Assembly (NCBI GenBank): GCA_029262855.1
Contig: JAJCYP010000103.1
Coordinates: forward strand, 1 to 46,344
Source of the DNA: Bacteroidota bacterium
GTDB taxonomy: Bacteria > Bacteroidota > Rhodothermia > Rhodothermales > UBA10348
DNA: 46,344 nucleotides
Direction: 5' to 3'
This document shows positions 10,226-13,922 of this stretch, in pieces. The notes beneath the pieces were generated by a model. It made no database searches. It was not told the DNA's origin and worked only from the letters and a program-made list of their open reading frames with translations. The translations under genes and the position numbers were made by a program. How positions within the stretch are numbered: the stretch's first letter is position 1; every line of letters starts with the position of its first letter.

Positions 10226-10345
10226 GAGGCCCTGAATTGGTGGGATGATTTTGACTGCCGGGTATATCATTTGTTCTGACAAGTGTTGACGTCACCCGAC
10301 CAAGCGCTATCCACCGCGCTCGGCGGTCACTGGCGGCGACAAACC

Positions 10346-10351
10346 TATATT
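10346..10351 (+). promoter_or_regulatory. Candidate -10 element (TATATT) for the HIT gene
   Basis: TATATT lies 18 bp upstream of the HIT start, in the 144-bp divergent gap between the pterin operon and the HIT gene. No convincing -35 box was found, so this is only a weak candidate. Confidence 0.3.
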
Positions 10352-10369
10352 CTGACAACCTCGAGACCC

Positions 10370-10714
10370 ATGGCCGAAAGAACGCTCTTCCAGAAAATCG
10401 AGACCGGAGACATCCCGGCAGACATCATCTACGAGGATGACGTGTGCTTTGCGTTCCGGGACATCGCTCCACAGGCACCGACCCATGTGCTGGTCGTGCC
10501 CCGCAAGCCTATCCCTACGCTCAACGATCTTGAGGCCGAAGACGCGGAACTGGTCGGGCGGCTGCTTCTGGCGGCAAGGAAGATTGCCGCGCAGGAGGGA
10601 CTCGATGGGGGGTACCGCACGGTCTTCAATTGCGGTCCGGATGCCAACCAGACGGTGTTCCACATTCACCTTCACCTCCTTGGCGGACGTTCCATGTCCT
10701 GGCCGCCAGGATGA
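10370..10714 (+). CDS. HIT family nucleotide-binding protein
   Basis: A 114-residue histidine-triad protein of the HINT/PKCI branch, which hydrolyses nucleoside phosphoramidates. It carries the N-terminal TLFQKIETGDIPADIIYEDD, the middle IAPQAPTHVLVVPRKPI, and the catalytic triad HIHLHLLGGR at the C-terminus. The ATG at 10370 gives the normal family length. Its TGA overlaps the ATG of the next gene as ATGA (10711-10714), indicating translational coupling to an exported protein of unrelated type. Confidence 0.94.
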   Translation: MAERTLFQKIETGDIPADIIYEDDVCFAFRDIAPQAPTHVLVVPRKPIPTLNDLEAEDAELVGRLLLAARKIAAQEGLDGGYRTVFNCGPDANQTVFHIHLHLLGGRSMSWPPG

Positions 10715-12711
10715 GGGTTTGGTGCTTCATGATCCTGGTTGTTGGATGCGTGCTCGGTACCAGCGCGGTCGCGGGGCAGACGGTTACCTACGATGGAGCC
10801 TTTGAACGGGCTGTCAATCGCTACCGGTGGACGGCCCAGTTGGCGTCGGCAACCTCGGTAGGCGCCTGGCGGGTACAGGCCATGAACCGGTACCGCTCGG
10901 ATGCCTTCATCCTGTTCGACGATCGGCTGAGTTTTCGTGACGTAAATGCGCTTCGTATCAACGCCGGACGGCCTCTTGGCGAGCGCAGCGAGGTGGTGGC
11001 CAGAGGCCGATCCGATTGGTTCAGTCTCAGCGATGTACTGGCACAGAGCATCTACGGCGGCGTGAAATTCGGCGTGTCCGGCGCAACGTTTGCGCCGCTG
11101 TTGGGGGTGGCCATGGACCGGCGTCCCGGCGTTCGGCTTTCCGACGGAACACTCCCACTCCGCACCGACGCGGGCCCCGCATTCGGAGCCGAAGTCACCA
11201 TCCCCACTCGAGAAGCCTCGGGCTATACCGTTCAGGCATCGGGGCAGGGATTTCGTGAGCAACTGGGGCCGCGGGCCGGCTCGTTCGCGCGATTCGAGGG
11301 GAGTGCTGAACGGGCATTCGAGCGCACCGTGCTTCGTGTGGAGATGCAGGGTGGCGCCGCCCGGCGCGATGCGTATCAGGCCGCATCATTTCTGAATCGC
11401 GACGATGCCGCCCGGCAATCCGAGACCGTCGAGTCCACCCGTAGCGACACACTCGGGGCGACGTTGGTGATAGAGACCCCGGTGACACGCCGACTTCAGG
11501 TCACGGGCAGCCTGGCCTTCAACGCCAACAACCGGAGCGTTCGGACACTGCGTGCGCCGGAGGAGGCGCTGTTCTTCGATTCTGATTTTTCACGGCGCAC
11601 CGTGGACGCCGACGTGTCCTCGGTCTATGAGAGCGGAGCAACCCAGGTCCGGCTGGGCTTTCAAGGGGGAGCCGAGATCGAACGTCGGAATCTGACGAAC
11701 GAAGACGACCTGCCCGCCACGCAGGCCGCCCAGAAGCGGGATCTGCTGAGTCAGGCCAACTACGACAGAGGCTACGTGACGCTACTGGCCAGCGTACGAC
11801 TACCACTCACGTCCAAGACCATGATTGTGTTGGATGGCTCGGCGAATGCCATCCGGCACGACACGCCGATCATCAATCCCGACGATCGGGATGAGATCTT
11901 CTCCAGGGGGCGCGTTTCGCTGCTCTATCGGCCGTCCCGGGTGCTGGAGGCTGATCTTCAGGTGAATGCCACCCATTACCACACGGTGTACCTGAAAGCA
12001 GCCCGGTCGGCCGAAAACAACGTCCAACAGGGGCTCCGGCTTCGTCCCGCCGTCCGCTGGCGTCCCGGACCGCGCACCCGGATCGACCTGAGTTCCGAGG
12101 TCAGGGCCACCTATACCGTTGACGATTTTACGCTGGCCGGGCGGCGACCGACGGATCAGGCCGCCCGAGAACTCCGGTACGACCTGAACGCCGAGCATGA
12201 CCTGGGCGATGGGCTGCGGGTCCTGGCCGAGGCGCGCCTGAGCGATCTGCGTCTCGGGCGATTCCTGGACCAGGAGTTCGCCGAGATTCCCATCGACACG
12301 CTGCGAACCTATGGTGGCTGGTTTCGGGTGCAATCCGGCACCCGCATCGTGGCAGAGATCGGACTGCGTGTCTTCATTCGAACGGATTTCGACCGATCGG
12401 CCACGGTCCGCTATCCCCGCCTGAACGCGGATGGCGAGCAGGACATTGACGCCTCGGGCAACGTCCTCACCACGACCATCAGTCGGCCGGGGCGCCAGCG
12501 AATCGCTCAGATGGGTCCGACCTGCTCATTGACCTGGCCCATGCGAAACGGGGTCCTCCGGTTTGACGGTTGGTATACCGTCCAGCGCGTTTCCAGAACC
12601 CTGTACGGCGACCTCCCCGAAGCCTCGGCCTCGGTTATCAGGCAGGCCGCGAGCCGCGGAGAACGCATCATCATTCCCAACCTGTCACTGTCAATGCGAT
12701 GGGCCATCTGA
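10711..12711 (+). CDS. Probable outer-membrane beta-barrel protein of unknown function
   Basis: A 666-residue exported protein. The signal peptide is MRVWCFMILVVGCVLGTSAV, then AGQ. The rest is long alternating amphipathic strands rich in Arg, Asp, Thr, Ser and aromatics, with many short turns (for example RRLQVTGSLAFNANN, TQVRLGFQGGAEIER, RTRIDLSSEVRATYTV), and it ends LSLSMRWAI. This is the look of an outer-membrane barrel or of a protein that assembles with one. No TonB-receptor plug or OmpA domain was found. The start is fixed by ATGA overlap with the HIT stop. Its own stop lies inside the first codons of the coaE fusion gene (13-bp overlap). A role cannot be assigned. Confidence 0.75.
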   Translation: MRVWCFMILVVGCVLGTSAVAGQTVTYDGAFERAVNRYRWTAQLASATSVGAWRVQAMNRYRSDAFILFDDRLSFRDVNALRINAGRPLGERSEVVARGRSDWFSLSDVLAQSIYGGVKFGVSGATFAPLLGVAMDRRPGVRLSDGTLPLRTDAGPAFGAEVTIPTREASGYTVQASGQGFREQLGPRAGSFARFEGSAERAFERTVLRVEMQGGAARRDAYQAASFLNRDDAARQSETVESTRSDTLGATLVIETPVTRRLQVTGSLAFNANNRSVRTLRAPEEALFFDSDFSRRTVDADVSSVYESGATQVRLGFQGGAEIERRNLTNEDDLPATQAAQKRDLLSQANYDRGYVTLLASVRLPLTSKTMIVLDGSANAIRHDTPIINPDDRDEIFSRGRVSLLYRPSRVLEADLQVNATHYHTVYLKAARSAENNVQQGLRLRPAVRWRPGPRTRIDLSSEVRATYTVDDFTLAGRRPTDQAARELRYDLNAEHDLGDGLRVLAEARLSDLRLGRFLDQEFAEIPIDTLRTYGGWFRVQSGTRIVAEIGLRVFIRTDFDRSATVRYPRLNADGEQDIDASGNVLTTTISRPGRQRIAQMGPTCSLTWPMRNGVLRFDGWYTVQRVSRTLYGDLPEASASVIRQAASRGERIIIPNLSLSMRWAI

Positions 12712-13922
12712 ACGCCAAAACCATCGGCATCACGGGCGGGATCGGCTCCGGCAAGAGCACGGTCTGCCGGATGCTGGAGTCCTGGGGCGCGCACGTCTTC
12801 TACAGCGACGAGGAGGCCAAGAGGCTCATGGTGGAGGATCCCGCGCTGCGTGGCGAATTGGTGACAGCCTTTGGGCCCGAGACGTACAAGGACGACGGGT
12901 CACTCAACCGGTCCTTTCTGGCCGGAAGGGTCTTCGGAGATGCCGAACAGCTCCGTGTCCTGAACGGTCTTGTCCACCCCCGCGTCTACGCATCGTTCGC
13001 GCTCTTCGAGAAAGAGGCCAAGGCGAACGGCGCTCCGCTGGTCGTGCGGGAATCTGCCGTCATGCCGGAGGGCGCCGCCACCAGGGGCCTGGATGCGCTG
13101 GTGGTGGTGACCGCTGCCGAGGATGTGCGTCTGGCCCGTGTCACGCGCAGGGACGGTTCGAAGGAGGCGGACGTCAGAAAGCGGATGGCCCACCAGGACT
13201 CGGAATCAACCTTCGAGGCACGTGCCGATCGTATTTTGCGAAACGACGGCTCGCTGGATGACCTGAAAAGCGCGGCCGCCGAGCTCTACCGGGAATATAC
13301 CGGGATGGAGCCCACGACTGTGACCACCGAATCGCCCTATTCGACACCGCCACCGAACCTGCCCACCTGGGGCAACGCCGTCACCCGGGTCGTCGGCAGG
13401 TTGGCTCTGGGGCTGAGTGGATTTCGGTGGGTCGGCCCCTTTCCCGACCTCAAGAAGTTTGTTCTGATCGGCGCTCCACACACCACCAATTGGGACTTCA
13501 TTCTGGGCATGGCGCTCCTTCTGGCTACCGGAGTGCGCGTCAACTGGATCGGCAAGCATACCATTTTCCGGCCGCCCTTCGGCGGACTCATGCGTTGGAT
13601 GGGCGGCGTAGCCGTGGATCGGTCCCGGGCGGATGGACTCGTGGCCCAGGTCTGCGAAGCCATGCAGGCGGCCGATCGCATGGTGATCGGATTGGCGCCG
13701 GAGGGAACGCGGAAACACGTGGAATGCTGGAAGACTGGCTTCTACCGCATTGCAGTTGGTGCGGGCGTCCCGATCGTCATCGGGATGATTGATTTCGGCC
13801 GAAAGGAGTTGCGGGTTGACTCCGTTTTCGAGCCAACGGGAGACATGGAGGCGGACATCGCCGCCGTTCGAGCCCGGTATGTGGGGGTCCGCGGGAAGTA
13901 CACGGACAAATCCTCGACCTGA
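12699..13922 (+). CDS. coaE: Dephospho-CoA kinase fused to a PlsC-like acyltransferase
   Basis: One uninterrupted 407-codon frame with two domains. Residues about 6-200 are dephospho-CoA kinase, the last step of CoA synthesis: P-loop GITGGIGSGKSTV, then FYSDEEAKRLM, LNGLVHPRVY, VTRRDGSKEADVRKRMAHQ. A short linker (TTVTTESPYSTPPPNLPTW) follows. Residues about 215-400 resemble a small lysophospholipid/1-acylglycerol-3-phosphate acyltransferase: an HxxxxD box in APHTTNWDFILG, GKHTIFRPPFGG, GGVAVDRS, and the EGTR box in LAPEGTRKHVECWKTGFY. CoaE proteins normally end at about 200 residues, so the fusion is unusual. It would couple CoA production to a CoA- or ACP-using enzyme. The ATG at 12699 overlaps the preceding stop by 13 bp. 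No stop or obvious frameshift was seen at the join. Confidence 0.85.
   Translation: MGHLNAKTIGITGGIGSGKSTVCRMLESWGAHVFYSDEEAKRLMVEDPALRGELVTAFGPETYKDDGSLNRSFLAGRVFGDAEQLRVLNGLVHPRVYASFALFEKEAKANGAPLVVRESAVMPEGAATRGLDALVVVTAAEDVRLARVTRRDGSKEADVRKRMAHQDSESTFEARADRILRNDGSLDDLKSAAAELYREYTGMEPTTVTTESPYSTPPPNLPTWGNAVTRVVGRLALGLSGFRWVGPFPDLKKFVLIGAPHTTNWDFILGMALLLATGVRVNWIGKHTIFRPPFGGLMRWMGGVAVDRSRADGLVAQVCEAMQAADRMVIGLAPEGTRKHVECWKTGFYRIAVGAGVPIVIGMIDFGRKELRVDSVFEPTGDMEADIAAVRARYVGVRGKYTDKSST

Follow-up and report, generated by a model that had tools for sequence, protein, structure and literature searches.

A dephospho-CoA kinase and a PlsC-type acyltransferase joined in a single gene of a Bacteroidota bacterium

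Introduction

Dephospho-CoA kinase (CoaE), whose product is free coenzyme A (CoA) and not acyl-CoA, is widespread and usually essential. Bacterial CoaE (PF01121, TIGR00152) occurs as a stand-alone protein, whereas in the eukaryotic CoA synthase COASY (mouse structure 2f6r) the kinase lies within a bifunctional chain that joins two successive steps of CoA synthesis. Here we describe a gene in which the kinase is joined to an enzyme of lipid metabolism instead. The gene lies on contig JAJCYP010000103.1 (GenBank assembly GCA_029262855.1) of a Bacteroidota bacterium from the order Rhodothermales, of which positions 1 to 46,344 were analysed (hereafter the window), and it encodes CoaE followed in the same frame by a small PlsC-type acyltransferase (AT).

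A CoaE with a C-terminal partner is already known; it is the acyltransferase as partner that is new. The mycobacterial enzyme likewise consists of an N-terminal CoaE and a C-terminal partner, UPF0157, as far as the available portion of the report describes it (PMC2765170), and the protein presented here differs in that its partner is an acyltransferase with catalytic motifs. In a further, frame-transition cluster, coaE is translationally coupled to a neighbouring DNA glycosylase gene, and the available part of the description concerns coupling and programmed frameshifts (PMC3711429). There the partner is a different one, and what is described is not a single-frame fusion.

Architecture of the fused protein

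Translation of the gene gives 407 residues without an internal stop, and both Pfam domains score above their cut-offs (Table 1). The original prediction, made from the sequence alone, of a CoaE and a PlsC-like acyltransferase in a single frame therefore stands; the HTTNWD and EGTR boxes are where it placed them, and the linker is indeed short, with no stop at the join. In the AlphaFold model of the full chain (mean predicted local distance difference test, pLDDT, 92.8; predicted template modelling score, pTM, 0.68), the protein is predicted to form two confident domains, the relative placement of which is uncertain.

Table 1. Positions in the window of the fused gene, its parts and the genes upstream
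Feature	Residues or codons	Position	Strand	Remarks
Fused gene CoaE-AT	407 codons + stop	12699..13922	+	One open frame; full-length relatives in G001 and G002
Dephospho-CoA kinase domain, CoaE	8-187	12720..13259	+	PF01121, 130.5 bits (cut-off 27), E 7.4e-38
P-loop, GGIGSGKST	13-21	12735-12761	+	CoaE motif
Linker	202-222	13302..13364	+	Proline/threonine rich, variable; no helix or strand in AlphaFold model
In-frame ATG	203	13305..13307	+	Possible relic of old AT start; possible internal start
N-terminal helix of AT domain	227-240	13377..13418	+	Helix in both AlphaFold models
Acyltransferase domain by Pfam	256-360	13464..13778	+	PF01553, 45.4 bits (cut-off 23), E 9.1e-12
HTTNWD	261-266	13479-13496	+	AT active-site motif
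EGTR	335-338	13701-13712	+	AT active-site motif
Upstream gene	666 residues	10711..12711	+	Likely ATG at 10711; no known family; outer-membrane-like by eye
HIT-family gene		10283..10714 (open reading frame)	+	Head of apparent operon; PF01230, 95.4 bits

The kinase half has the same full domain as stand-alone bacterial CoaE, from which it differs in having an acyltransferase at its C terminus. It scores 105.1 bits against TIGR00152 (curated cut-off 65.55), and CoaE proteins are its top structural matches: of the first 30 Foldseek hits, 28 carry the title dephospho-CoA kinase, and the remaining two are TT1252 of T. thermophilus and mouse CoA synthase. Besides the P-loop, residues D37, E118, R144, R147, R162, Q166 and N182 are present, which we take to comprise the acidic residue after strand 2 (D37), the LID arginines and glutamine, and the conserved asparagine. 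In an alignment of 35 rows, which includes 32 non-redundant sequences of the 37 coaE rows, the P-loop glycines, K19, D37, R144, R162, Q166 and N182 are kept in 34-35 rows, E118 and R147 in 33-35, S17 in 33, and S20 and T21 in 27. A PF01121 search of the window's genome (146 contigs, 98.95% complete, 4.29% estimated contamination) finds one place above the cut-off, the fused gene, and two weaker places below it, and the fused CoaE is the only dephospho-CoA kinase detected there.

Neither of the known two-domain forms is matched. The model NF002879 (395 positions), taken as the two-domain CoaE-UPF0157 form, gives 135 bits against a cut-off of 215, and its match covers only the CoaE part, reaching protein residue 236 and model position 233; no GrpB/UPF0157 domain is found by Pfam at E values up to 1. 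Pfam gives 11 matches at E values up to 1, none of them a phosphopantetheine adenylyltransferase (PPAT, CoaD-like) domain, so the protein is not of the COASY type, in contrast to which the second enzyme here belongs to lipid metabolism and is C-terminal.

The second half is a small lysophospholipid acyltransferase (LPLAT) of the PlsC superfamily (PF01553), with which it has the HX4D and EGTR motifs in common. Modelled alone it reaches a pLDDT of 94.5 and a pTM of 0.89, and the solved structure closest to it in fold is PlsC of Thermotoga maritima (5kym, E 5e-7), followed by PatA, with template modelling scores (TM-scores) of at most 0.58. A sequence search against solved structures at E values up to 1 matched no acyltransferase structure on this side; two weak matches to photosystem subunits were taken as chance. 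Further motif positions are K286 and GGVAVDR (residues 302-308). Conservation was assessed in 51 rows, namely 47 hand-chosen for spread from 92 non-redundant AT rows (102 in total) and the four fused proteins described below; rows may extend beyond the match by as many as 12 codons at the front and 20 at the back, and their ends may not be coding. H261, T262, N264, W265, D266, K286, G302, P334, G336 and R338 are found in all 51, T337 in 50 and E335 in 48, while position 263 is threonine in four and mostly serine elsewhere. The small type with HTSNWD presumably corresponds to the Conserved Domain Database name LPLAT_ABO13168-like, a name that turned up in no paper of a literature search outside which most subscription journals lay.

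The AT half is probably membrane-associating. The N-terminal hydrophobic helices that we take to be typical of PlsC are lacking in the small form; its own N-terminal helix may contact the membrane, as suggested by the hydrophobicity and moment of residues 227-242, computed without a control.

Conservation of the fusion

The full fusion is present in all three genomes of the genus that were examined: the window's own (G000), G002 (70% identity) and G001 (57%). In a fourth genome, G005 of genus g4, the join is present and the contig ends inside CoaE, so that the start is missing. Synonymous differences between pairs of these four genes are high over the two domains (proportion of synonymous differences, pS, 0.60-0.72), yet the frame is open across the join in all four, which makes a spurious open frame very unlikely as judged from these sequences. 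The pattern of substitution indicates that both halves are under purifying selection. Between G000 and G002 the ratio of non-synonymous to synonymous differences (pN/pS) is 0.41 for CoaE, 0.21 for AT and 0.78 for the linker, the last over 22 codons only, and the AT half is under the stronger purifying selection in six of the six pairs compared. Linker residues 201-222 are identical to those of G002 at 8 of 22 positions, and in unfused relatives the corresponding position is taken by the leader of the separate AT gene.

Distribution

Within the genomes searched, the CoaE-AT fusion is rare and lineage-specific, in keeping with the original prediction, which was aware of no common fusion of the two. 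Among the matches listed in a scan of 114 genomes of the order, it occurs only in G000, G001, G002 and G005 (the last over residues 127-404, up to the contig end). Of 395 genomes sampled from the phylum (E 1e-58), five gave a match, and only in G000 and G001 does it span both domains. In the two other phyla to which Pseudomonas and Chloroflexi loci of the stand-alone AT belong (E 1e-54), spanning matches were found in 0 of 398 and 0 of 400 genomes, weak negatives that lack a positive control, and eight genomes with stand-alone AT loci gave none either (0/8). A Chloroflexi locus (L062) matching residues 127-405 is not a fusion, there being no coaE and a stop before the AT. Titles and abstracts in the literature contained no description of a CoaE-AT fusion in a search that left most subscription journals outside.

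As single genes, by comparison with the fusion, relatives of the AT are widespread, with at least 591 confirmed stretches in named genomes, of which 80 were kept. coaE lies near the AT in three of the 80 (L060, L118 and L119), all from members of the window's family that the survey below already includes; L060 and L119 are metagenome-assembled genomes of Rhodothermales.

Gene order in the family and origin of the fusion

A survey of 27 genomes of the family, including that of the window, shows the two genes in several states. Four genomes carry the fusion (with G005 cut by the contig end), 16 have coaE followed on the same strand by a separate, adjacent AT gene, and six have CoaE and no AT match; G026, which is 62% complete, gave no match. 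The AT starts of the unfused relatives were guessed from sequence, and on that basis 10 of the 16 adjacent pairs have a candidate start that overlaps with the coaE stop. Counted back from the final base of the stop, the start lies at 3 bases in seven of these, a four-base overlap of ATGA or GTGA (-3 type), and at 7 bases in three (-7 type). In G009 (L033) and G025 (L045), coaE and AT share a frame with a stop between them. Both had appeared to be fused, G009 through a spanning match and G025 through one open frame listed for both halves; one TGA between the halves in the former and a stop in the latter separate two genes, and both were ruled out.

Since the relatives have coaE and AT adjacent and often overlapping, comparison of their sequences suggests that the fusion most likely arose by merging of two neighbouring operon genes. 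The ancestor would have had a HIT gene, a gene for an outer-membrane-like protein, coaE and AT as consecutive genes of one operon, with overlaps or hardly any gap between them. In the window's genus and in g4, either an insertion or deletion near the coaE end would have changed the frame, or the stop would have been lost from a same-frame ancestor, and the old AT leader would have become the linker; as to the exact merging event, this is what we infer from the arrangements seen today. A stop in the +1 frame lies 18-26 codons after the conserved NxG in all four fused genes, near where unfused coaE ends. As a trace of the former coaE end it is at most a hint, because the closest unfused relatives do not have the -3 type of overlap, and chance could give it too.

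Weighing the interpretations

Taken together, we favour, with a probability of about 0.8, a genuine two-domain and probably bifunctional enzyme that came from merged neighbouring operon genes, the halves of which are largely independent while their ratio and co-expression are fixed by the fusion. Both halves are probably active, to judge from their sequences, and each enzyme would act largely on its own; the benefit to the cell would presumably lie in the fixed ratio and joint expression, and perhaps the AT half also brings CoaE near the membrane. Direct channelling between the halves is unlikely, because CoaE makes CoA and the AT needs acyl-CoA or acyl-ACP (acyl carrier protein), so that another enzyme stands between them.

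Several observations weigh against this interpretation. The AT half falls well below the curated cut-off of the PlsC subfamily model TIGR00530, with 35.1 bits (37.7 in the genome search) against 102.95. That cut-off is strict: in a control of 14 genomes, 10 matched and five passed. Gene trees (31 coaE and 27 AT rows from 36 genomes, the rest being stretches without the gene concerned) raise a further point. The AT tree unites the fused genus, G005 and the unfused G010 (genus g9) in one clade (support 100/99), within which G010, although unfused, pairs with the fused G005 (95/91). Fusion thus either took place twice or took place once and was followed by a split; the AT topology fits both equally well, and the coaE tree is unresolved around the fused clade. 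Finally, the frame of coaE relative to AT differs among the unfused relatives, being +1 in the -3 type of overlap, +2 both in the -7 type and in G010, and the same in G009 and G025, so that more than one frame history would fit.

With respect to the role of the AT, six other PF01553 matches above the cut-off (seven including the AT half) and a PlsY gene are present in the window's genome, and another gene (C30) fits TIGR00530 better, just reaching its cut-off with 102.9-103 bits; for these reasons the fused AT is probably an accessory LPLAT and not the main PlsC. In Shewanella livingstonensis, LPLAT paralogs put particular fatty acids into phospholipids, according to the portion of the report available (PMC9541089), and by analogy with these accessory paralogs a fair guess for the AT domain would be fatty-acid-specific acylation of lysophosphatidate.

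Could two real genes have been merged by a missed stop or a frameshift in sequencing or assembly? The two genes found at this locus in relatives outside the genus would suit such an error, as would the fragmentation and estimated contamination of the window's genome, but the same fusion stands in G002 and in G001, whose 20-contig assembly carries it on a contig of 2.09 Mb, and the join recurs in G005. As three assemblies share the full fusion and one more the join, we reject this explanation as hardly credible. The original prediction had named relatives with two separate genes as evidence that would overturn it; such relatives do exist outside the genus, but they leave the fusion standing, because the fused form is itself conserved within the genus. 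The gene might instead yield at least two products, the fusion and a free AT translated from an internal start at the ATG of codon 203 or the GTG of codon 208. In favour of this idea, G000 has an in-frame ATG at the former border between the genes, G001 has one that aligns with it, and candidate AT starts of unfused relatives fall at about the equivalent point. However, this ATG is missing from G005 and from G002, where another ATG follows a few codons later; no clear Shine-Dalgarno sequence is visible upstream by eye, and the fused gene no longer has the coupled termination on which such a start would depend. On balance, a second product is unlikely, if the least so of the alternatives considered here.

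The remaining alternatives accept the fusion and concern what it does. One is that the AT serves mainly as a folding or anchoring partner of CoaE, with catalysis secondary, in the manner of mycobacterial UPF0157: soluble mycobacterial CoaE needed the fused C-terminal domain or glutathione S-transferase (GST), according to the accessible part of that study (PMC2765170). This is improbable given that purifying selection acts more strongly on the AT half than on CoaE, that the AT half keeps its motif residues, and that six family members have CoaE without an AT match. In a true metabolic coupling, of the kind that the original prediction proposed between CoA supply and the use of acyl-CoA or acyl-ACP, an AT at the membrane would sense or use acyl-CoA and tune CoA synthesis, or the CoA it releases would feed back on the kinase. 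In most of the family (16 genomes with adjacent genes and four with the fusion, of 27) the two stay together on the same strand, and in at least one lineage in one chain, which is compatible with such coupling. Human CoA synthase is also said to be activated by membrane phospholipids in the same partially available source, which reports no phospholipid activation observed for mycobacterial CoaE (PMC2765170). Set against this, the linker is variable and the domain placement is not confident, the AT loci examined outside the family adjoin unrelated genes (mutM, prfC, transporters), and merging of neighbouring operon genes remains the simplest origin. We therefore regard coupling as rather unlikely, and the same doubt applies to the idea of an enzyme that physically ties the last step of CoA synthesis to phospholipid acylation at the membrane, with the cell's only CoaE controlled by the AT half by way of membrane contact, acyl-CoA or CoA that it releases; this would be a new regulatory architecture of CoA metabolism.

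Under the favoured interpretation of a genuine two-domain enzyme, the only detected CoaE copy is obliged to carry a lipid acyltransferase, and the family offers side by side separate overlapping genes, same-frame genes with a stop, and fused genes, a natural series towards fusion. If the activities are coupled after all, the protein would directly link CoA supply and membrane lipid synthesis; if they are not, it would be a clear example of two genes that stay fused for the sake of co-expression.

Genomic neighbourhood

Upstream of the fused gene, the HIT gene, the 666-residue gene and coaE-AT overlap at both borders (10283-13922, forward strand). The HIT stop overlaps the likely start of the 666-residue gene in an ATGA (10711-10714), and the stop of the latter (TGA, 12709-12711) lies within the first codons of coaE (overlap 12699-12711). 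The fusion thus appears as the last stage of a gene string that was already densely packed. The 666-residue protein has no Pfam or NCBIfam match and a single PHROGs match at E 0.097; it probably represents an unnamed family of outer-membrane proteins. By eye, its start is signal-like. Of the 25 family loci examined, 24 have a homologue (44-76% identity) upstream of coaE and 19 have the HIT gene there, the sequence of the remaining loci ending before that point. In a different family, G036 has neither in the 3.6 kb upstream and G047 has both.

The neighbours of 76 stand-alone AT loci show no shared partner and no steady link to CoA or lipid genes, the largest neighbour cluster (single linkage) covering 12 loci. 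Nine neighbours were scanned and proved to be prfC, an AI-2E transporter, mutM, gamma-glutamyltranspeptidase, TauE, DUF1295, a second acyltransferase, an ABC ATPase and a sulfotransferase. At L086 and L088 from Pseudomonas, the AT lies directly downstream of a gene of the mutM cluster (the gene of L086 was scanned, and that of L088 falls in the same cluster), and these two loci together with L081, L082, L092 and L097, six in all, have a gene of the gamma-glutamyltranspeptidase cluster within about 2.5 kb of the AT. The mutM neighbour recalls the coupled cluster of DNA glycosylase and dephospho-CoA kinase genes, so far as the available part of its description goes (PMC3711429). At four other loci, L065 (Simiduia), L076, L087 and L099 (Porticoccaceae), a second, related acyltransferase adjoins the AT, as seen by Pfam in L065 and by clustering in the others.

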